From an uncultured bacterium (GTDB lineage Bacteria > Cyanobacteriota > Vampirovibrionia > Gastranaerophilales > Gastranaerophilaceae), in NCBI GenBank assembly GCA_949282195.1, contig CASDOW010000012.1, forward strand, positions 1 to 64,000: 64,000 bases of DNA, read 5' to 3'. How positions within the stretch are numbered: position 1 is the first letter of the stretch; each line of letters begins with the position of its first letter. A model generated the notes under the pieces. The model had not been told where the DNA came from, made no database searches, and was given only the letters and a program-made list of their open reading frames with translations. Shown here in pieces: positions 33,672 to 44,045 of the stretch. A program made the translations under genes and the position numbers.

Positions 33672-36002
33672 TTAAACCATTTTATATACTTTGAATTCTC
33701 CGGGGCGAAGTTCATTAAATGTGATTTCTTTTGTTATGTCGTTTTCAAGTTGTTTTTCAACAAAAAGACATTTGTTTAATTCGTCTAATTCAAAGTCAAA
33801 GTATGAAATAAGCTTTTTGCCTTCCTTGATTTTAACGGTATTATTTTTTGTTATTGTTCCTCTTACGTTTTTCTTTTCGATGTGTCCTAAGTTGTCTTGA
33901 ACATCTTTTATTTCAGAGGGTGAAAAATAATTGGCAACAATTAAATAAGTAGCTTGCTTTTCATCTTTTTTGAGTTTTTGTTTGTCATTATCTGCTACCA
34001 CTTCCCAACATACAAAGCCGTTATTTTCTTGATTATGTAAAACAGCTCTGCCTTGATTTAAGAGTTTGTCGTGTTGAGCAAAATAATTAATGGCGTTAAA
34101 TTTTTCAAAGAAATTCCAATCATAATTTCTTACCATTGATGTTTCTTTTGAAATAATTCTTTCAATTCCGACTTTGGTAAAGCTTTCATCTCCGTCAATT
34201 AATAATGTCGGGCGAGATGCAAATTTTCCGCCGGGGATAAATTTCATCTTAAACCATTTAAATAAAGCTCCTTGAGCGCCCAATTGTCCGGGGTATTGAT
34301 TAATATCTCTAAATTCGCCGTCTTGATTATTATATCCTTTTAGAATAGATAAAGGATTTGATTTTGAATTTTTTTGATTGTAGGTTGATAATCTTAAGTT
34401 ATCGTTTATGATTTGCTCAGGAGTTTTAATGCTTTGAGCAACAATATCATCGCCCCAAAGTAAATCAAATTTCATATCCTTATGATATTCCTTAAAATAT
34501 CCGTCCCATAACATGTATTCAGCTAAGGTTGCAAAATAAGGAATTTTCTTTTTGAGGTTAGCGTTAACTTTACCCAGAACTTTAGCAGGAATTCTATAAC
34601 TCAAGGGTTGACCTTTTTTGTCTTGTGATACTTCATCCACAATGTGGTCAATATGATCGACTCTATAACCGTCAAAATTAAATTCTTTTTGTAGATTTTC
34701 AGTGTAATCTATATAAAAATCAACAACATCATTGTTATATTTATTTAATTCAAAATGATAGAAGTAATATGGAGTTTGGCAGTCTAAATTCGCAAAATGC
34801 GTTACATCTTCACCTTTGTAGTTGTAGTGTTTACATATTGGATATTTAGCGCCTTTGCTCATTTTATCAAAAACGGGAACTCCTGCTGAACACCAAGCAC
34901 CGCCTGACATTGTCCAAAGACCTTGTTTGATTAATTCGTTTACAATTTCGTCTTGGTTTTCGATGTCTGATTCTGATTTAATATGTTTTTTTGCGGTTTT
35001 TGAAATTATTTCTTCCGCCCTTTTTTGAAGTTCTTCTTGTTTTTGAGCAAAGCTCATTTGGTATGAAACTAAAATTTTATATTCTTTGATATCTTTTTCA
35101 ATTTCATCTATGATTTTTTGTTCGGTGGTGTTATATTTCTTATAGTTGCCTTTTAAGTTTTCAAGATATAACTTTTGAACATTTAGTACATCTTCATCTT
35201 TATATGTTCTTTTTTGCATTAACTGGGCGCACAATGCGTTAAAATAGCCTGAAATGCTTTGAATTAGTTCATTTACATCCATCCACCTTGCAACATGGGG
35301 CTTTGATAAAACAATTTTAGAAAATCTTGCAGTTTGGGGCAAAATATCATAAATTACAGGATGATTGCATAATTGCGCTAATTCAATGAATAATTTAACT
35401 TGGCTTGTTGCGTCAAGTCCTAAGAATTTCAACAGATTATCATCTTGTAATTTATCAGATACTTCTGATGATTTTGGTAAATAAGCACAATCAAATTCGC
35501 GCTTAAAGAAAGGAATTAAATATAATGTTGCAGGTAAAATATCCAATTCATCATTTCCGTTGTCTAATGTAATTAAACATTTTACCCAATCAATAAAGTG
35601 CCCAGGGTAATCTGAAGCATTGCCGTCCCCTAGTGCACTTAAAGATAAGAGTTTTATGTTATGACCTTCTTTTTTAAACCAATTTGAATTTTTAATGTTT
35701 CTTCTATATAAAACAGAAGGATTTGAAAAATCTATGAATTTATTTTCGCTATATGTTTTTGCTTTTGTTAATTTTTGAATAAGGCAAAATATTGTTTCAG
35801 AGTCTGTTAACTCTTGCAGAACTTTGAATTGAGGATATGGTAAATAACCATATTTTTCAATGGTTTCCGATAAATATTTTTTTCTGTTTTCACAGATTTC
35901 ATCTATTCTATAAATTTGTGCCATTTTGGCAATTAATAAACTAAGTTCGCAAGACTTAAAATTTGCTTCGTGTCTGTTTTTCTTTGCTAATAAATTCAAC
36001 AT
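33672..36002 (-). CDS. Large GH13 (alpha-amylase superfamily)-like protein
   Basis: The 776-residue cytoplasmic protein has weak but ordered GH13 signatures: HPVIYDILPQ near 214-223 (region I position), FDGYRVDHIDHI at 443-454 with candidate nucleophile Asp449, TLAEYMLWD at 492-500 with candidate acid Glu495, and NYFAQHDK near 640 (region IV). A long, mostly helical insertion (about 240-360) separates regions I and II. The last 90 residues look like a beta C-domain. A glycan-active role is likely, probably on alpha-glucan, but the substrate is unknown. AGAGG precedes the start. Confidence 0.6.
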   Translation of the reverse strand: MLNLLAKKNRHEANFKSCELSLLIAKMAQIYRIDEICENRKKYLSETIEKYGYLPYPQFKVLQELTDSETIFCLIQKLTKAKTYSENKFIDFSNPSVLYRRNIKNSNWFKKEGHNIKLLSLSALGDGNASDYPGHFIDWVKCLITLDNGNDELDILPATLYLIPFFKREFDCAYLPKSSEVSDKLQDDNLLKFLGLDATSQVKLFIELAQLCNHPVIYDILPQTARFSKIVLSKPHVARWMDVNELIQSISGYFNALCAQLMQKRTYKDEDVLNVQKLYLENLKGNYKKYNTTEQKIIDEIEKDIKEYKILVSYQMSFAQKQEELQKRAEEIISKTAKKHIKSESDIENQDEIVNELIKQGLWTMSGGAWCSAGVPVFDKMSKGAKYPICKHYNYKGEDVTHFANLDCQTPYYFYHFELNKYNNDVVDFYIDYTENLQKEFNFDGYRVDHIDHIVDEVSQDKKGQPLSYRIPAKVLGKVNANLKKKIPYFATLAEYMLWDGYFKEYHKDMKFDLLWGDDIVAQSIKTPEQIINDNLRLSTYNQKNSKSNPLSILKGYNNQDGEFRDINQYPGQLGAQGALFKWFKMKFIPGGKFASRPTLLIDGDESFTKVGIERIISKETSMVRNYDWNFFEKFNAINYFAQHDKLLNQGRAVLHNQENNGFVCWEVVADNDKQKLKKDEKQATYLIVANYFSPSEIKDVQDNLGHIEKKNVRGTITKNNTVKIKEGKKLISYFDFELDELNKCLFVEKQLENDITKEITFNELRPGEFKVYKMV

Positions 36003-36074: not shown

Positions 36075-36110
36075 ACAAAAAAACGGTAAAAGATTTATCT
36101 TTTACCGTTT
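36075..36110 (-). terminator. Terminator of the Ehr operon
   Basis: A 14-base-pair perfect inverted repeat (36081-36094 with 36097-36110) is followed on the minus strand by a run of seven T residues counting the arm end. Confidence 0.85.
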
Positions 36111-36127: not shown

Positions 36128-36886
36128 TTATTTTTTTCTTATAAAATCCAATACCGCGTTTATGAAGGTTAATGGGTGTGTCGGGCATCCGGGAATATAT
36201 AAATCAATTTTATATTTATCAATAAATTCTCTATTTAATTCTTGAGAATTTTGGAAAATTCCGCCTGAAATAGCGCAAGCTCCGCACAAAACCACGACCT
36301 TAGGGTCAGGACAAGATTTATAACAATCTTCTAAAGCATAGGCCATATTTTTTGAAATCGGACCTGTAACAACAATGCCGTCTGCGTGGCGAGCTGAGGC
36401 TACAAAGTCAATTCCAAATCTGCCCATGTCAAAATTGGCGTTTCCTGCGGCATTTAATTCCATTTCGCAACCGTTACATCCGCCTGCTGAAACTTGGCGG
36501 AATTTTATTGAACGATTGAAAATTGAATAGATTTCTTTTCTTATTTCAATTGCTTTTTTATTATATTCTTCAGGAGTCATTTCTTCGGTTATAATCAATT
36601 TTTCTCTTTTATCTGCTCCTAATTTATAGTAGTTTGTAAAATCAATTGCGTGGTTTTCGCAAAATCTTTTACATTTGCCGCATAGTGTGCATTTGCCTAA
36701 ATCAATTGACAATGGGTTAACATTTAGTGCGCCTGTTGGGCAAATTTTGGCACATTCGCCACAATTATTGCATTTTGAATTATCGAGTTTCGGTAATCCC
36801 CTAAATGCCGTTCTCATTGGTGCATTTTGAATATCAGGTATAAATTGATTTTTTTGCCATAATTTCATTTTTAAAGTATCAAACAT
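36128..36886 (-). CDS. Ehr complex small subunit with fused 2[4Fe-4S] ferredoxin (HyfI/NuoB-like)
   Basis: The 252-residue protein fuses a two-cluster ferredoxin domain (Cys39, 42, 45, 49 and 66, 69, 72, 76) to a NuoB/HyfI-type subunit. The N2-type cluster ligands are present: GGCNGCE (Cys137, Cys140), VLCGAC (Cys201/204) and IPGCP (Cys234). In the complex I lineage this subunit passes electrons to the quinone or active-site pocket. The fusion merges the roles of HyfH and HyfI. It is the last gene of the operon. Confidence 0.85.
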   Translation of the reverse strand: MFDTLKMKLWQKNQFIPDIQNAPMRTAFRGLPKLDNSKCNNCGECAKICPTGALNVNPLSIDLGKCTLCGKCKRFCENHAIDFTNYYKLGADKREKLIITEEMTPEEYNKKAIEIRKEIYSIFNRSIKFRQVSAGGCNGCEMELNAAGNANFDMGRFGIDFVASARHADGIVVTGPISKNMAYALEDCYKSCPDPKVVVLCGACAISGGIFQNSQELNREFIDKYKIDLYIPGCPTHPLTFINAVLDFIRKK

Positions 36887-36903
36887 AATATTTTTTCCTT
36901 AAA

Positions 36904-38355
36904 TTACAAATCAAATCCACAGTATGAAAGGTCAAATCCTTTGTTGCACAAAGGAAAATCAGAAATTCCGTTTCCTCTTACTGCCATTGATAAACCATAC
37001 CAATTGTTAAAAGACGGGTCTTTAATTTTATAACGTGTTAATTTTCCTGTTTCGTCAGTTGTTGCTATGTGAACTAATTCGCCTCTCCAGCCTTCAACAA
37101 TGCTCAGCGCAAAAGAGTTTGGAATTAAGTTTTTTGCTTCAACTTTGATTTCCTCGTCTTTATAGTTTTCAAGTTTGTTTAGCAATTTTTTAATATATGA
37201 AATAGAATCAATTGTTTCTTTGTATCTTATTCTAAAGCGAGAATATGCGTCATTGGTTGCTTTAAAGGGTTTACGCTCAAAATCTTTATAAAATTCATCA
37301 CAAAAATCAAAGCGAGAATCCAGCTCTAATCCGCAGGCTCTACCCATTAAACCAACTAAATTCAACTCTTGAGCGGTTTCTCTGCTTACTGTACCTGTTT
37401 TTTCAAATCTTGACATAACAGTAGCGCTTTTAAATACGGCCTTTGTCATTTTATTAACTGTCTTTTTAACGCCGTCAAGAACGCTTATAATTTTATCTGA
37501 CATTTCTTTATCAATATCAAAGTTTACACCGCCAAAAGTGATTAATCCTCTGCCAAATCTGCTTCCTGAGATTTCAAGCATAGTATTAATAACTAAAGTT
37601 CTTGTAACGGCATATACTTCCTTGCCCATTAAATAAGCAATATCACCCAAAATTGCGCCCATATCGCCGATATGTATAGCACATCTTTCCATTTCAAGCG
37701 CAATTCTTCTGATTAATTTTGCTTTTGTTGAAATTTTTGTGTCGGATAATTCTTCCATAATTTGTGAATATGCCATATTATAAGCTATAACACTATCACC
37801 GCATATTGATTCAGCTAATTGATTAGAAGGATTTTTAACCATTAAATCTTCGCAGCCCCTGTGTTGATAACCAAGCATAATTTCAAGATTATATACTTTT
37901 TCGCCTTGGCACATAAATCTGAAATGCCCGGGCTCAATAACCCCTGCGTGGATTGGTCCGACTGCCACTTGGTGGGTTGCTTCTCCTTCCATTTCAAAGA
38001 ATTTATAATCATCTTGATTTTTTCTAACAGGTTTTAACCAAGGATGACCTTTTGGTTCAATATTGAATTGTTCGTAAAATTCACGCTCGAACATGTGATA
38101 TTGAGGATTATCTTTTGTAATGGATTCATATTCTTTTATGTTTTTGTTAATCAAGGAAGAAGTTAGTAAAATTTCTCCTTTTTCGTCGTCTGCTAAAGCA
38201 ACAAACAATTTAACATTTTCACCCCAATCACATCCGAAAAATGATAGCGGTCTTAGATTGCTTGCTGCAAGCCTTGCTCTTAGGGCGTCAAGCTCTAAAG
38301 TCGGAATATCCAATAAATTTATTCTTTGATTGTTTTTTATAGTATAGTAATTCAT
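36904..38355 (-). CDS. Ehr complex large subunit (HyfG/NuoCD-like, NiFe ligands lost)
   Basis: The 483-residue protein has a short NuoC-like N-terminal domain (about 1-115) and a NuoD/HycE-like large subunit (EPGHFRF, MLGYQHRGCEDL, ERCAIHIGDMGAI). In a [NiFe]-hydrogenase the first motif is CxxC. Here it is Cys185-Gly-Asp-Ser. The C-terminal DPCxxC is replaced by DPSFNNW at 446-452. At most one of four nickel-iron ligands remains, so hydrogen activation is not expected. This is the hallmark of Ehr complexes. The end FPLCNKGFDLSYCGFDL fits the same group. Confidence 0.88.
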   Translation of the reverse strand: MNYYTIKNNQRINLLDIPTLELDALRARLAASNLRPLSFFGCDWGENVKLFVALADDEKGEILLTSSLINKNIKEYESITKDNPQYHMFEREFYEQFNIEPKGHPWLKPVRKNQDDYKFFEMEGEATHQVAVGPIHAGVIEPGHFRFMCQGEKVYNLEIMLGYQHRGCEDLMVKNPSNQLAESICGDSVIAYNMAYSQIMEELSDTKISTKAKLIRRIALEMERCAIHIGDMGAILGDIAYLMGKEVYAVTRTLVINTMLEISGSRFGRGLITFGGVNFDIDKEMSDKIISVLDGVKKTVNKMTKAVFKSATVMSRFEKTGTVSRETAQELNLVGLMGRACGLELDSRFDFCDEFYKDFERKPFKATNDAYSRFRIRYKETIDSISYIKKLLNKLENYKDEEIKVEAKNLIPNSFALSIVEGWRGELVHIATTDETGKLTRYKIKDPSFNNWYGLSMAVRGNGISDFPLCNKGFDLSYCGFDL

Positions 38356-38376
38356 TTTATCTCCTAACCCTCTAAA

Positions 38377-39810
38377 TTAACCTATAAGGGTATTTTTTAT
38401 AATTACATCTAAAAATTTTGGTATATATACCCCAAGAATGAATGCTAATGTTAACATTGCAACTTGTGGAATATACATTGTTTTTGAAATTTTTGTGATA
38501 TTTTTCTTTGCTAATTCAAATTTTTCTTCACTTTTCTTGCCATATACCATTTTAATAACAACTCTTGCCATTCCAAAAAGAACAACCGTTAGCAAGAATA
38601 AAAACAAAGCGCATAATATAAAATGCTTTTGGATTAAAAACGCTTTTACAATTAAAAATTCACTCAAAAATAACATGCTTGGAGGAAATGCGCAAATTCC
38701 AAGGAAAGAAGCTATCCAAAGCCAAGCTGTTTTCTTGTCGATTAAACCCAATGAACGGATTGATTTAATTCTTTTTGTTTCAAATAATTCTAAAACATTT
38801 CCTGAAGTAAGGAAGAATGAAGCTTTTATTAAAGAATGACCGATTAAATGGATAATTAAGGCAAAATATGCAATTCCGCCTAACGCTGTTGCGATTGCTA
38901 AAATACCCATATTTTCAATTGATGAATAAGCAAGCATTCTTTTGTAGTTTGTTGTGTGATACAAAAATACCGCTGTTACAAATAATGATAAAAAGCCCAT
39001 TATTAAAAGCATAGTTCTTGCGAAAATTACGCAATTAGCACAAAGCATAACTTTATACACATTCAAAATAACTAAAAATGCACAATTTAACAATGTTGCT
39101 GATAATAAGGCTGAAATCGGGCTTGGAGCTTCTGAGTGTGCGTCAGGCAGCCAAAAATGTACAGGTGCAAGACCCATTTTTGTGCCAAGACCAAACAAAA
39201 TAAATACGAAAGATACATTCAACCAAAAATGGCTGAAGGATTTTGCATTGTTCATTAAATCGTTATAATTTAGTGTATTAATATCGCCTGTCGCAATAGT
39301 TAAAAGAATTATGCCCACAAACGCCAGAGCAATACCGATTGAACAGATAAATACATATTTCCAAGCTGCTTCAATAGAGTGTTTTGTTTTATTGAAATAA
39401 ATTAAGTATGCACTTGCTAAAGTTGTGCCTTCAATGAATATCCAAGCTAAGCCAAGGTTATTAGATAAGATACCGCCTGTCATAGAAAAGACAAATATTA
39501 GTATCATTATGCTATATAACATCATTTTTTTAGCGGGAAATTCTTTGGCTAAATTCTTGCTATAACCGCAGTTATAAACGGAAACCGCAAGAAAGACAAT
39601 TGATAATACAAGGTAAAATACAATATTTGACGAACCCAAACCAAAATAATTACATTCGCCCAAAAGTTCGGGTTTTAGAAAATATGCAATACCTACGCTT
39701 GAATGTAAAAGCGCATATAAAGTAATTAATATATTATTTAGTGTATTATTTTTGAAGAAAAATAATATTAAACAAAAAATTATTGGTAATATTAAAACTA
39801 AACTAATCAT
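38377..39810 (-). CDS. Ehr complex antiporter-like subunit (HyfF/NuoN-like)
   Basis: The 477-residue, multi-spanning protein (about 14 helices) belongs to the Mrp/complex I antiporter family. The family segment GTKMGLAPVHFWLPDAHSEAPSPISALLSA has the key lysine and histidine region, and LAYSSIENMGILAIATALGG follows. It is one of two such subunits and is predicted to translocate ions. It overlaps the next upstream gene by eight bases. Confidence 0.87.
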   Translation of the reverse strand: MISLVLILPIIFCLILFFFKNNTLNNILITLYALLHSSVGIAYFLKPELLGECNYFGLGSSNIVFYLVLSIVFLAVSVYNCGYSKNLAKEFPAKKMMLYSIMILIFVFSMTGGILSNNLGLAWIFIEGTTLASAYLIYFNKTKHSIEAAWKYVFICSIGIALAFVGIILLTIATGDINTLNYNDLMNNAKSFSHFWLNVSFVFILFGLGTKMGLAPVHFWLPDAHSEAPSPISALLSATLLNCAFLVILNVYKVMLCANCVIFARTMLLIMGFLSLFVTAVFLYHTTNYKRMLAYSSIENMGILAIATALGGIAYFALIIHLIGHSLIKASFFLTSGNVLELFETKRIKSIRSLGLIDKKTAWLWIASFLGICAFPPSMLFLSEFLIVKAFLIQKHFILCALFLFLLTVVLFGMARVVIKMVYGKKSEEKFELAKKNITKISKTMYIPQVAMLTLAFILGVYIPKFLDVIIKNTLIG

Positions 39811-40453
39811 TGTTTTCGCTATCCTTTAAGTCTGATAAATGTGCTACTTCCATATCCCCAAGTTCTTTGTTGATTTGAGAAACAAATAAACCTAAGATAT
39901 AAATTGCAATAAATACATCCAGTAAAACACCGATGTTAACCAGCATTGGCATTTCTTTTGCAACAGATAACGATAGTAAGAATATACCGTTTTCCATTGT
40001 AATAAATTCAATAACATTTGATAAAATCTTTTGTTTAATTGTAATTAGCCATAAGCTTATTATTATTGTTGCTAAGGCAATTCCAAAACACATTGGATTT
40101 ATCATAGATAAAGAAGGGATATCTAAAACGGAAACCATAAAACCGCCAAATAATATTGCGCTTGAAATAAATAAGCAATAGAAATGGGCGATATTAGCGT
40201 CCGTATCTCTTTTTAGGTGCGTCTTTTTTAAAACTTTATTTAAAAATAAAGGAATTAATATTGCTTTAACAAGCAATGTTTCAATTGTTAAAAATAAAAT
40301 AATAAACCAAGGCATATGATGAAATCCCGCTGCACAAATTAAAAACAGCAATATACCTTGAGCCACAAGGGCGTCAACATGCGCTTTTAATCTACTTGTT
40401 GTAGATAAATAGAGCATTGTTAAACCAAATAATATTATAAAGCCGTTAACCAT
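39803..40453 (-). CDS. Ehr complex membrane subunit (HyfE-like)
   Basis: The 216-residue membrane protein has about six to seven helices and a polar C-terminal tail. Size, position between the HyfC-like and HyfF-like genes, and a NuoK-like pattern (FITMENGIFLLSLSVAKEMPMLVNIGVLLDVF) match HyfE, which fuses NuoJ/K-like elements. The start lies two bases before the HyfC-like gene stop. Confidence 0.8.
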   Translation of the reverse strand: MVNGFIILFGLTMLYLSTTSRLKAHVDALVAQGILLFLICAAGFHHMPWFIILFLTIETLLVKAILIPLFLNKVLKKTHLKRDTDANIAHFYCLFISSAILFGGFMVSVLDIPSLSMINPMCFGIALATIIISLWLITIKQKILSNVIEFITMENGIFLLSLSVAKEMPMLVNIGVLLDVFIAIYILGLFVSQINKELGDMEVAHLSDLKDSENND

Positions 40454-40455
40454 TT

Positions 40456-41385
40456 TTATACTCCATACATTTTTACAGCTACTAAAGAAGCAATAACAAG
40501 AGCAAATGAACTCATTACAAATACAAATTCAAATACGTGGCTCATTCTTAGTCTTGCTATTCCTGATTCAATTGTTCCGACTAAAACAGATATAACAAAC
40601 ATCATTAATAAAAATGCTGCTATTGAAGCGCCTAAGCCTAAACTTGAAGGTAAAATTAAATTAGATATTAATGATGCAAGTAAAAACATTTTCATATATG
40701 CGCTCCATGAAATTAGCGCTAATTCAGATGAGCAATTATCCAATATCATAACTTCGTGAATCATTGTTAATTCCAAGTGTGTGGCAGGGTCATCAACAGG
40801 AACTCTGCAACCTTCGGTTAAAAGCATAATTAATAGTGCTAAAACAGCAAAAATTATTATCAAATAGCCGATACTTCCGGCATTTTGGATTACAAGAGCT
40901 AAACTGTCAAATGTGTATATTTTACACATTGCCATTATTGAAGCAATAACAATAAAAAACGCAGGCTCAATTATTGTTGTAAAACAAGCTTCACGAGATG
41001 CGCCCATTCCTTCAAAGCTGCTTGCTGTTTCCATTGCAGCCAATAAAGAAATAAATTTAGATAAACCCAAGGCATAAGCAAAAATAATTAAACCGCCTTG
41101 AATATTAATTATCGTTGTTCCTCCTACAATCGGAATAAATAAGCAAGCAAAGATTGTGCAAGCAAGACCAACTAAAGGAGAAAATCTGAAAATCCAAGTT
41201 GTTGTGTTTGAAAAGGTTGAGGTTTTTTTCATTAATTTGATAAAATCATATAACGGTTGAAAAACACTTGCGCCTTTTCTTCCTCCAAAGAATGCCTTTG
41301 TTTTTCTGATTATTCCTGTCATTAAAAAAGGAATAACAAGTAAGAATAAAATATTTAAAATTTTCATTAACATTTCTTCTGTCAT
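40456..41385 (-). CDS. Ehr complex membrane subunit (HyfC/NuoH-like)
   Basis: The 309-residue protein has about eight membrane helices. It contains GRKGASVFQPLYDFIKLMKK and LTEGCRVPVDDPATHLELTM, the classic NuoH/HyfC cytoplasmic loops with the conserved acidic residues that couple redox chemistry to ion movement. It follows the HyfB-like gene by 16 bases. Confidence 0.9.
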   Translation of the reverse strand: MTEEMLMKILNILFLLVIPFLMTGIIRKTKAFFGGRKGASVFQPLYDFIKLMKKTSTFSNTTTWIFRFSPLVGLACTIFACLFIPIVGGTTIINIQGGLIIFAYALGLSKFISLLAAMETASSFEGMGASREACFTTIIEPAFFIVIASIMAMCKIYTFDSLALVIQNAGSIGYLIIIFAVLALLIMLLTEGCRVPVDDPATHLELTMIHEVMILDNCSSELALISWSAYMKMFLLASLISNLILPSSLGLGASIAAFLLMMFVISVLVGTIESGIARLRMSHVFEFVFVMSSFALVIASLVAVKMYGV

Positions 41386-41401
41386 AATAAATTATCCTAT
41401 A

Positions 41402-43372
41402 TTAACCTAAAATCAGTGCGGCAATTAAAGCTATTGCCAAGAATATTAACCCTACACGAATGTATTGTTGAATATCTCCGTTTTGAATTTTTTCAAATTT
41501 AGATAAGAATTTTTCATCTAATTTTATTATCGGATTAATAACATAAACTTCTTCAATGTCGTCAAATTCAGCTTCGTAGTGTGCTTCTTTTGGGAATAAT
41601 CCTTTTGCTTTTCTAACATCTGTATTTCTTTTAAATAAAGGTTTTAAAATGCTTGAAAAAGGACTAACGTAAGATGCTGCACTATATTGAACTTTGCTTG
41701 TCAATTTGTTATATCCGCAACCCCAAGTTGAATAAATTTGAGGAGTTTTTGAGATTAATTTTTTAACTATTGTAATAACTAAAATTAAGCCGACAAGAAT
41801 TAAAATATATTTTGAAACAGATGATAAAAATGCAATTGTTTCACCTGCTTGCGGGTTTTCAATTAAAACTGACGCAGGTTTTAGGGCATACTGGAATATA
41901 TATTGAGGAAATAAACCGATTACAAAACAAGCTGAGCCTAATAAACCCATTGGAATTAGCATTGATTTAGGGTTGTCGGTTTCAATACTTTGCGCTTTTT
42001 CGCTTCTTTCAAGACCCAAAAAGGTTATACTTATTGTTTTTGTGAAACATAATATAGCCATCGTTCCAACTAAAGCTAAAGCAGAAAAAGCGAATAGTAT
42101 TGCAATAAATACTCCAAAGTTATCAATTGCCAAAGCTTTAATAAAGCTCAAATATATTAAAAATTCACTTACGAAACCGTTAAAAGGAGGTAGGGCACAA
42201 ATTGCAATACCGCCAATTATAAAACACAATGCAGTCATTGGCATTTTTTTAATCAAACCGCCTAAAACTTCCATATCTTTTGTGTGAGTTTTAACATATA
42301 CACTGCCTGCGCTTAAGAATAATAATTCTTTAAATATTGAGTGGTTTAATATATGAACTAAGCTTCCGCATAAGCCTAAAAGAGCCATTATCGGATGATT
42401 AAAGTATGTTGCTAACATATAAATTGAAATACCGATACCTATAATTCCTATATTTTCAATTGATGAATAAGCAAGCATTTTTTTGATGTCTTTTTGAACT
42501 GTTGCATAAGCAATGCCGTAAAGTGCTGTTATTGCCGTTAAGATTAATATAGCGTATATAACAGCAATTTTTGGAATTGAAGTGAATTGAATTGTTCTTA
42601 AAATACCATAGATACCTGTTTTAATCATAACGCCGCTCATCATTGCACTAACATGAGAGGGTGCTTGAGGGTGGGCATCAGGCAGCCAATTATGGAAAGG
42701 AACAAAACCTGCTTTTATTCCAAAACCGATAAATCCAAAAATAAATATCAAATTTGCCAAATTGGCGTTATCTTTGATTGCTTCTTTGAATGTCATAAAG
42801 TCAAGGCTCATGGCATTTGTTGAAAGTAATACAAAGAATAAAATTATAAATATTACGGATACATGCATATAAACAAGGTATTTAATGCCTGAATTAATAA
42901 CTTCTTTTTTCTCGTGTTCAAAAATAACAAGGAAAAATGAAGATAATGACATTAATTCCCAAATAATTAAAAATAACAATGCGTTTTGACAAGTTACAAC
43001 CAAAAGCATTGAAGCCATTAACATAGCTAAAAATATACAATGAGCTGAAACATCTTTCCCTTTGTTAATGTAAGGAGTTAGATATCCGTTTGAATAAATA
43101 ATTGCCAAAGTTGACATTATTGAAATGAAAATTACAAAAAATGCGCTTAAATTATCAAGCACAAATCTTACATTTTGAAATATGGAACCAAGGTGCAATA
43201 TACATTCTTGATTTCCGACAATTAAGGCTTTAGTTGCTGCGCTAACTGTTGCACAAGCTGCTAAAATTGCTCCGATTGATACACATTTTAATTTTGTTGA
43301 TTGATTTTTGAAAAATAAACTAATAATCGCACTGCAAATTAAAACCGCTATTCCTATAAAATAGTTTTCCAT
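41402..43372 (-). CDS. Ehr complex antiporter-like subunit (HyfB/NuoL-like)
   Basis: The 656-residue protein has about 16 membrane helices. Family motifs are LIIWELMSLSSFFLVIFEHE, GIKAGFVPFHNWLPDAHPQAPSHVSAMMSG and MLAYSSIENIGIIGIGI, followed by LVHILNHSIFKELLFL. It opens the operon, and AGAGG stands eight bases before the ATG. Order (HyfB, C, E, F, G, I) is the standard hydrogenase-4-like order without HyfD. Confidence 0.9.
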   Translation of the reverse strand: MENYFIGIAVLICSAIISLFFKNQSTKLKCVSIGAILAACATVSAATKALIVGNQECILHLGSIFQNVRFVLDNLSAFFVIFISIMSTLAIIYSNGYLTPYINKGKDVSAHCIFLAMLMASMLLVVTCQNALLFLIIWELMSLSSFFLVIFEHEKKEVINSGIKYLVYMHVSVIFIILFFVLLSTNAMSLDFMTFKEAIKDNANLANLIFIFGFIGFGIKAGFVPFHNWLPDAHPQAPSHVSAMMSGVMIKTGIYGILRTIQFTSIPKIAVIYAILILTAITALYGIAYATVQKDIKKMLAYSSIENIGIIGIGISIYMLATYFNHPIMALLGLCGSLVHILNHSIFKELLFLSAGSVYVKTHTKDMEVLGGLIKKMPMTALCFIIGGIAICALPPFNGFVSEFLIYLSFIKALAIDNFGVFIAILFAFSALALVGTMAILCFTKTISITFLGLERSEKAQSIETDNPKSMLIPMGLLGSACFVIGLFPQYIFQYALKPASVLIENPQAGETIAFLSSVSKYILILVGLILVITIVKKLISKTPQIYSTWGCGYNKLTSKVQYSAASYVSPFSSILKPLFKRNTDVRKAKGLFPKEAHYEAEFDDIEEVYVINPIIKLDEKFLSKFEKIQNGDIQQYIRVGLIFLAIALIAALILG

Positions 43373-43490: not shown

Positions 43491-44045
43491 TTAAAAAAGC
43501 AACGCTATTGCGTTATCAATCTTGTTGTTTAAGGTTGCAATATCAGAATTATTTTCAATTATTATATCTGCTTTTGTTTTGTTTTTGTCGTTTTGACAAT
43601 TTATTCTTTGAAGAGCTGTATTTTTATCAATATTATTTCTTTTCATTAAGCGAGATAATCTTAGTTCTTTTTTCGAGTCGATAAAGATTATTTTATCAAA
43701 TAAGTCTTGAAATCCTGCTTCATATATAAGAGCGCCTGAAACAATAACAGCTTTTTTATCTTTATTTATTTCGAAAATATTTATAATATATTCTTTTAAT
43801 TTTGGATAAATAATGTTTTCCAGATTTTTTTTCTTGTTTAGGTCGCTAAAAACAATCTTTGCCAATTCAGTTCTTTTTAGGGTTTCAAATTCGCCTAAAA
43901 TTTTCTTTTTAATTTCGTCATCTTTTTCTAATAATTGATGAGAAATTTTATCTAAATCAACTACAACAAACCCTTTTTTTAAAAGGATATTTTCAACTTC
44001 TGATTTACCTGAAGCAATATTACCTGTTAAACCTATTTTTATCAT
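43491..44045 (-). CDS. coaE: Dephospho-CoA kinase
   Basis: The 184-residue P-loop kinase performs the last step of coenzyme A synthesis. It has GLTGNIASGKSEVENIL, VVDLDKISHQLL and the NIIYPKLKEYI segment, plus RLSRLMKRNNIDKNTALQRI in the lid region. It is monocistronic. TAAAAT stands six bases before the ATG, with no Shine-Dalgarno. Confidence 0.92.
   Translation of the reverse strand: MIKIGLTGNIASGKSEVENILLKKGFVVVDLDKISHQLLEKDDEIKKKILGEFETLKRTELAKIVFSDLNKKKNLENIIYPKLKEYIINIFEINKDKKAVIVSGALIYEAGFQDLFDKIIFIDSKKELRLSRLMKRNNIDKNTALQRINCQNDKNKTKADIIIENNSDIATLNNKIDNAIALLF

Follow-up and report, generated by a model that had tools for sequence, protein, structure and literature searches.

An Ehr complex of the formate-hydrogenlyase/hydrogenase-4 type without [NiFe] ligands in Gastranaerophilales, with a conserved replacement site and a possible role as a ferredoxin sink

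Ehr complexes (energy-converting, or Ech, hydrogenase-related complexes; GSU0739-0745 in G. sulfurreducens) were reportedly treated by Coppi in 2005 and by Marreiros in 2013, and, to our knowledge, their reaction has been without assignment since the former. The locus described here shares with them group-4 hydrogenase-like subunits, HyfE-like and NuoL-like membrane subunits, and the lack of [NiFe] ligands. Such complexes occur across numerous phyla (one scan gave at least 572 relatives of our query by sequence) and have already been noted in this lineage, as a six-subunit NiFe-like complex (Di Rienzi 2013; PMC3787301) and as a Melainabacteria Ehr (Matheus Carnevali 2019). The Melainabacteria complex of these two papers has six subunits and missing motifs and occurs with neither Rnf nor formate dehydrogenase, as is the case here, and is very probably the one in our window; similarly, the "NiFe hydrogenases" of relatives from the koala gut (PMC4040986) are probably the Ehr complex. 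Our analysis suggests that annotating "NiFe hydrogenase" in these gut bacteria is a mistake; if so, this has consequences for models of H2 metabolism in the gut.

The window (the whole 64,000-nucleotide stretch analysed, from contig CASDOW010000012.1 of an uncultured member of the Gastranaerophilales) carries six co-directional genes at 36128-43372 on the minus strand, with gaps of at most 21 bp and intrinsic-terminator-like stems on both sides (43515-43500 and 36110-36081). The order, B-C-E-F-G-I, is the HyfB-C-E-F-G-I order read by a first-pass annotation, and the genes lie where it had placed them:

43500..43515, minus strand: terminator-like hairpin where the upstream gene coaE ends, setting coaE apart from the operon
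41402..43372, minus strand: HyfB/NuoL-like antiporter-type subunit, 656 aa (NCBIfam PRK06521, hydrogenase 4 subunit B, 7e-163, below the curated cut-off)
40456..41385, minus strand: HyfC/NuoH-like subunit anchoring the peripheral arm in the membrane, 309 aa (PF00146, 2e-30)
39803..40453, minus strand: HyfE-like membrane subunit, 216 aa (NCBIfam PRK11492, hydrogenase 4 membrane subunit, 8e-16, below the curated cut-off)
38377..39810, minus strand: HyfF-like antiporter-type subunit, 477 aa (NCBIfam PRK06458, hydrogenase 4 subunit F, 1e-90, below the curated cut-off)
36904..38355, minus strand: large subunit EhrL, 483 aa, a NuoC-like N-terminus fused to a NuoD/HycE-like domain without [NiFe] ligands (PDB 7z0s_E, HycE, 8e-37)
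37792..37803, minus strand: EhrL codons C185-G-D-S188, the first CxxC position (by alignment)
36913..36933, minus strand: EhrL codons D475-LSYCG-F481, the true C-terminal DPCxxC position (by alignment)
36128..36886, minus strand: small subunit EhrS, 252 aa, in which a ferredoxin domain with two [4Fe-4S] clusters at the N-terminus is fused to a HyfI/NuoB-like domain with the proximal cluster (PF01058, 1e-27, plus Fer4; PDB matches 6cfw_J, MbhJ, 2e-26, and 7z0s_G, HycG, 1e-23)
36081..36110, minus strand: terminator-like hairpin of 13 pairs with a T tail, closing the operon

Because the block is intact in 22 of 23 inspected relatives from the host's order, this arrangement is not a matter of chance; in relative L043, the small subunit is missing from its contig.

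Aligned to HycE, Cys185-Gly-Asp-Ser of EhrL falls on Cys241-Gly-Ile-Cys244, the placement given in the first-pass annotation. Its assignment of DPSFNNW (446-452) to DPCxxC has to be corrected: this stretch aligns with AATYANW of HycE, about 30 residues upstream of the motif, and the true counterpart of HycE DPCYSC (529-534) is DLSYCG (475-480), with Ser477 for Cys531 and Gly480 for Cys534. Where group 4 [NiFe] hydrogenases carry CxxC ... DPCxxC, EhrL therefore has CGDS and DLSYCG, with cysteine at one of the four ligand positions. No cysteines from elsewhere fill these sites in the alignment, the counter-evidence that the annotation had named; Cys470 and Cys479 are near in sequence but off the ligand positions. 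The protein stops two residues after DLSYCGF (475-481) and lacks the C-terminal extension on which a maturation protease acts, a feature previously overlooked. Its AlphaFold model (pLDDT 91) finds its best fold match in HycE (7z0s_E, TM 0.89).

In the tree, 109 large subunits, including Geobacter homologues though not the published Ehr sequences themselves, form one clade (SH-aLRT 100). Across these sequences from many phyla, none of the four ligand positions is conserved as cysteine: the first, occupied by Cys185 in the window, is Ala in 82, Cys in 19, Ser in seven and Thr in one, a variability that had also been missed; the second is Thr in 83, Ser in 22 and another residue in four; and the third and fourth are Ser and Gly, respectively, in all 109. 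Asp187, Glu141, His136, Asn471 and Lys472 are likewise present in 109/109. Because the place once taken by the metal differs from that of hydrogenases yet is strictly conserved in all of these large subunits, it is, as read from the alignment, repurposed rather than decayed, with Asp187, Ser477, Gly480, Asn471-Lys472, Glu141 and His136 as its replacement residues, and the complex now poses the question of a new, conserved active site rather than of a damaged hydrogenase.

The remaining parts were said to have kept their iron-sulfur ligands and ion-channel residues, and both statements hold. EhrS has all twelve Fe-S cysteines (C39/42/45/49, C66/69/72/76 and C137/140/204/234), which are conserved in most of 104 homologues, and alignment to NuoL/NuoM finds Glu139, Lys220, Lys251, Lys348 and Glu403 in HyfB and Glu127, Lys211, Lys329 and Glu384 in HyfF. 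In addition, HyfC keeps the equivalents of NuoH D63, E157, D213 and E220, with His203 at the position of E218.

The absence of maturation genes, claimed for the window, extends to the genome and to the order: HypD, and with it the Hyp maturation system that accompanies group 4 [NiFe] hydrogenases, was found in 0/192 genomes in a search whose positive controls matched, so that no [NiFe] hydrogenase could be matured in this order. Together with the alignment, the tree and the structure model, this supports the first-pass identification of an Ehr complex that has lost its [NiFe] ligands and reacts with something other than hydrogen. Among 64 genomes of the order, neither Rnf nor Mo-formate dehydrogenase (Mo-FDH) was detected (0/64 each) and ferredoxin-reducing oxoacid oxidoreductases were present in 64/64; the window's own genome retains 2-oxoacid oxidoreductase operons of this kind, their subunits read by eye.

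Surveying 192 genomes of the order (60 with and 132 without Ehr, with phylogenetic correction by genus only), we found FeFe hydrogenase to be absent from 26/60 Ehr-positive and 0/132 Ehr-negative genomes (Fisher 7e-16), with modest support after stratification by genus (permutation p 0.008); 34 Ehr-positive genomes keep the enzyme. Among genomes encoding pyruvate formate-lyase (PFL), it is missing from 20/25 with Ehr and 0/7 without (p 2e-4). The presence of Ehr in every genome that lacks FeFe hydrogenase points to a possible role. The hydrogenase-less genomes sampled all encode PFL (20/20) and 19/20 have lost the one-chain pyruvate:ferredoxin oxidoreductase, so that the supply of reduced ferredoxin may be smaller there.

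The formate channel FocA, often adjoining an OprP-fold porin, shows a similar distribution (47/60 with Ehr versus 1/132 without; p 1e-31, genus-stratified 5e-5), even though FocA and Ehr lie more than 10 kb apart or on separate contigs in 31 of the 47 genomes. The protein, of the FNT family, is closest to FocA (1e-55, versus 4e-23 for HSC and 6e-20 for NirC), and its nine pore residues are all FocA-like save for Asp88 to Glu, making nitrite or hydrosulfide a less likely cargo. One alternative, possible but improbable, is that PFL-based fermentation to formate is the sole reason for FocA and its porin in these lineages, the link to Ehr being a metabolic coincidence. PFL occurs in all 20 sampled hydrogenase-less genomes, and in the window's genome a PFL activase is encoded at a distance of 1.5 kb from FocA, but FocA follows Ehr within each PFL class. 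Among PFL-negative genomes, it is found in 12/16 with Ehr and 0/16 without (p 2e-5), and seven PFL-positive genomes without Ehr lack FocA; stratification thus rejects PFL as the explanation of FocA. These co-occurrences establish linkage, not direction. The tracking of FocA with Ehr, with or without PFL, the confinement of FeFe hydrogenase loss to Ehr-positive genomes and the invariant replacement residues are not reported in the accessible parts of Di Rienzi 2013 and Matheus Carnevali 2019.

Beside the operon itself, no conserved redox partner occurs in 23 loci of the order, and 86 loci outside it hold no conserved acceptor enzyme or cofactor gene, an EIIA/HTH regulator being their sole recurrent neighbour (43/86). 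Neither Rnf nor Mo-formate dehydrogenase nor HypD, each considered as a possible partner or competitor, occurs in the genomes tested. UbiA, taken as a marker of quinone synthesis, does not discriminate, as it is present in 190/192 genomes regardless of Ehr.

We favour, at a probability of roughly 0.58, a reading in which the six genes encode an Ehr complex that oxidises ferredoxin, pumps ions and releases electrons to a small acceptor. Descended from the formate-hydrogenlyase/hydrogenase-4 line, the complex would take electrons from reduced ferredoxin at the fused ferredoxin domain, a plausible entry point, already proposed in the first-pass annotation, that fits the loss of FeFe hydrogenase only in Ehr-positive genomes, and pass them through a pair of [4Fe-4S] clusters on to the proximal one, also [4Fe-4S]. 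From there they would enter the acceptor at the remodelled pocket, predicted to hold no Ni-Fe and to present an invariant polar set (Asp187, Ser/Thr188, Ser477, Asn471-Lys472, Glu141, His136 and Arg424), and their release would drive ion export through HyfC-E-F-B. The complex could thereby serve as a cellular ferredoxin sink able to replace H2 evolution. We count in favour of this reading the greater abundance of Ehr subunits in Geobacter sulfurreducens on formate than in hydrogen-containing conditions (PMC7894505), and against it the lack of a conserved acceptor enzyme or cofactor gene in the 86 loci outside the order, the modest genus-stratified support for hydrogenase loss, and the coincidence of that loss with PFL and, mostly, with loss of the one-chain pyruvate:ferredoxin oxidoreductase. 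Because FocA tracks Ehr independently of PFL, CO2/formate or another small monovalent anion is a tentative first candidate for the acceptor couple, with a low likelihood. The bolder proposal, that Ehr is itself a ferredoxin-dependent, ion-pumping converter of CO2/formate (or of another small anion carried by FocA), working with only an Fe-S cluster and a polar pocket and without Mo, W, Ni or flavin, so that formate takes over from H2 as electron sink and exits via FocA and the anion porin even without PFL or formate dehydrogenase, is highly speculative.

The same parts could run backwards, an ion gradient being spent on reducing ferredoxin for FeFe hydrogenase or biosynthesis; Di Rienzi et al. 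2013 (PMC3787301) suggested this for the lineage, and 34 Ehr-positive genomes do retain FeFe hydrogenase. However, the 26 genomes that lack this proposed consumer all retain Ehr, and ferredoxin-reducing oxoacid oxidoreductases are encoded in 64/64 genomes tested, leaving reverse operation unlikely. A quinone reductase like complex I would have the same fold and pump, and the genome encodes a MenA-like prenyltransferase, but the headgroup residues His38 and Tyr87 of Nqo4 are Ile140 and Gly186 in EhrL, UbiA-family genes occur whatever the Ehr status, and true complex I-type NuoD proteins with both quinone residues occur separately in the order; we regard this as quite improbable.

Reduction of sulfane sulfur (polysulfide), with the proximal cluster offering a free coordination site, is modelled on MBS: in this characterised relative, too, some of the [NiFe] ligands are gone while pumping persists (PMC7684303). 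The activity of MBS depends on a CxxC-bearing loop shortened by three residues, which leaves three Cys ligands and frees one iron (PMC7684303), whereas the GGCNGC spacing of EhrS is of the hydrogenase type with four conserved cysteines, and MbhL Glu21, missing in MBS, is invariant in Ehr large subunits, so that such chemistry is very doubtful here. Hardly credible is a decaying hydrogenase relic without function: three of four ligands are indeed lost and L043 has no small subunit on its contig, but the new residues are invariant across the 109 sequences, which span many phyla, the wire and pump residues are all kept, and the operon is intact in 22/23 relatives.

These data tie Ehr, read here as a probable ferredoxin-oxidising ion pump, to two testable traits, hydrogenase loss and a FocA/porin route for anions. 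Compared with E. coli formate hydrogenlyase/hydrogenase-4 (Hyc/Hyf), the complex has the same subunits and B-C-E-F-G-I gene order, the same large-subunit fold (TM 0.89), the same proximal cluster motif and, in EhrL, the counterpart of HycE Glu193, but it is without the [NiFe] ligands, HyfA, HyfD, a separate HyfH, FdhF, maturation genes and the C-terminal extension. With MBS (Mbx) of P. furiosus it shares the standing of an ion-pumping relative with partial loss of the [NiFe] cysteines and ferredoxin as donor (PMC7684303), yet Ehr differs in its proximal-cluster loop, its Glu21 equivalent and a membrane arm of Hyf rather than Mrp type. Among Ehr complexes elsewhere, the EIIA/HTH regulator stands beside half of the loci; in the host's order, which is without it, Ehr is linked instead to FocA and an OprP-fold porin.

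The six-gene order given in the first-pass annotation holds; the genes form an operon on the minus strand, bounded by terminator-like stems at both ends:

41402-43372, minus strand, hyfB
40456-41385, minus strand, hyfC
39803-40453, minus strand, hyfE
38377-39810, minus strand, hyfF
36904-38355, minus strand, large subunit (EhrL), fused nuoC-nuoD type
36128-36886, minus strand, small subunit, fused ferredoxin-hyfI

The six-gene Ehr block forms a self-contained unit, being present in 22 of 23 relatives inspected amid varying neighbouring genes. In the exception (locus L043, on contig C43 of genome G124), a PIG-L/LmbE-type deacetylase gene, read by eye, follows hyfG, and the small-subunit gene was not found within the stretch examined, through either genuine loss or misassembly. 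A 776-residue protein (33672-36002, minus strand) adjoins Ehr both in the window and in locus L033; searches of Pfam, NCBIfam, PHROGs and PDB sequences left it unmatched, and its GYRVDHID stretch recalls glycoside hydrolase 13. Outside the window's order, inferred to be Gastranaerophilales, a helix-turn-helix protein with a PTS EIIA-2 domain lies upstream of hyfB at 43 of 86 Ehr loci (among L119-L198 and L103-L107), so that in those lineages a PTS-type regulator may govern Ehr.

The assignment to Ehr was borne out by phylogeny: in a tree built by a quick method, with long complex I branches flagged by a warning, 109 Ehr sequences from many phyla, Geobacter homologues among them, form a single clade (SH-aLRT 100), inside which those of the order form one clade. 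The AlphaFold model of EhrL (residue numbers one lower than in the protein) is confident (pLDDT 91) except for pocket loop 134-141 and the C-terminus, and among solved structures it most resembles the formate hydrogenlyase subunit HycE (TM 0.89). Passages of Di Rienzi 2013 (PMC3787301) and Matheus Carnevali 2019 (PMC6349859) already describe Ehr in this lineage.

The CGDS motif (residues 185-188) aligns with HycE CGIC as annotated, but DPSFNNW (446-452), previously taken for the DPCxxC motif, pairs with HycE AATYANW; the real counterpart is DLSYCGF (475-481), two residues before the stop codon. Among 109 Ehr large subunits, ligand column 1 holds Ala, Cys, Ser or Thr (Cys185 being a minority state, 19/109), column 2 Thr, Ser or other residues, and columns 3 and 4 invariably Ser and Gly; Asp187, Glu141, His136, Asn471 and Lys472 are invariant, and Arg424 is at least 98% conserved. 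The former metal site is thus replaced and strongly constrained, not eroded. Both the Fe-S ligands of the small subunit and the residues for pumping are retained, as annotated.

Three order-wide surveys, all covering one set of 192 genomes (60 with Ehr, 132 without), were merged. FeFe hydrogenase is absent from 26 genomes, including the window's, all of which encode Ehr, and from none of the 132 lacking Ehr, an association that holds within genera (p 0.008). In a 64-genome sample, hydrogenase loss is restricted to genomes with both Ehr and pyruvate formate-lyase (PFL; 20/25, versus 0/7 with PFL alone). All 20 hydrogenase-less genomes sampled have PFL, and the one-chain pyruvate:ferredoxin oxidoreductase of 1180 residues is gone from all of them but G118; the positions recorded for this pattern are G000:C14:14376-16133 and G118:C1:39690-40247. 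The window's genome retains two ferredoxin-reducing oxoacid oxidoreductase operons, read by eye as 3- and 4-subunit types. Neither Rnf nor a molybdopterin formate dehydrogenase was detected in the 64 genomes. Cells without hydrogenase or Rnf must re-oxidise reduced ferredoxin, and the sole known ferredoxin-linked pump detected in them is Ehr, whose retention fits a ferredoxin sink. The same persistence speaks against the older idea that Ehr supplies ferredoxin to FeFe hydrogenase.

A FocA-type channel occurs in 47/60 genomes with Ehr versus 1/132 without (stratified p 5e-5, the test floor), and tracks Ehr within the 64-genome sample both with PFL (21/25 versus 0/7) and without it (12/16 versus 0/16). 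Because FocA and Ehr lie more than 10 kb apart or on separate contigs in 31 of the 47, simple physical hitch-hiking is insufficient. Usually next after FocA is a porin-like protein whose model resembles anion porin OprP (pLDDT 78, TM 0.63). In the window's genome some 29 kb separate the pair from the Ehr operon:

G000:C12:72547-73302 (L083:12499-13380), FocA-type formate channel, nine pore residues FocA-like, Asp88 replaced by Glu
L083:11206-12435, OprP-fold porin after FocA (predicted model)

At a distance of 1.5 kb from FocA there is also a pyruvate formate-lyase activase. The candidate acceptor suggested by the FocA link, by the greater abundance of Ehr in Geobacter on formate (PMC7894505) and by the origin of Ehr from formate hydrogenlyase is formate/CO2 or a different small anion. 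Our general reading, at a probability of roughly 0.58, is that Ehr is a pump that oxidises ferredoxin and takes a small acceptor into its pocket. That Ehr itself converts formate/CO2 or another small anion is very improbable, since formate chemistry that dispenses with Mo/W, a nicotinamide and a flavin has no mechanism known to us.

The maturation genes noted as missing from the window are missing more widely: HypD was found nowhere among the order's 192 genomes in a search that did detect its positive controls, which rules out a [NiFe] hydrogenase. The MBS family is ruled out by the proximal-cluster loop, under the defining rule of PMC7684303, together with the MbhL Glu21 equivalent, and the complex I family at the Nqo4 His38 and Tyr87 positions. 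Separate, true complex I-type NuoD proteins exist in the order; one genome with Ehr also encodes a divergent, long-branch NuoD-like protein (G151:C48:233348-234763, L063) with EKIDYF replacing DRVDYL.

Six loci from a different family within the class carry a complex that is sister to Ehr (SH-aLRT 98):

L108:8712-16989, sister complex
L109:9097-16685, sister complex
L110:2551-10839, sister complex
L111:3646-11953, sister complex
L112:3102-11331, sister complex
L114:8696-16602, sister complex

At most of these loci the neighbours are an ArsR regulator and a transporter of the SatP/YaaH acetate type, and HypD was found in none of 7 genomes searched in that family. The pattern in the sister complex is the converse of that in Ehr: four ligand-like cysteines are present in the large subunit (CGMC ... 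NLCYAC), and the small subunit has lost its [4Fe-4S] ligands and the ferredoxin domain. The usual electron wire is not available to the sister complex, which may be a machine built on a metal site and lacking redox function.
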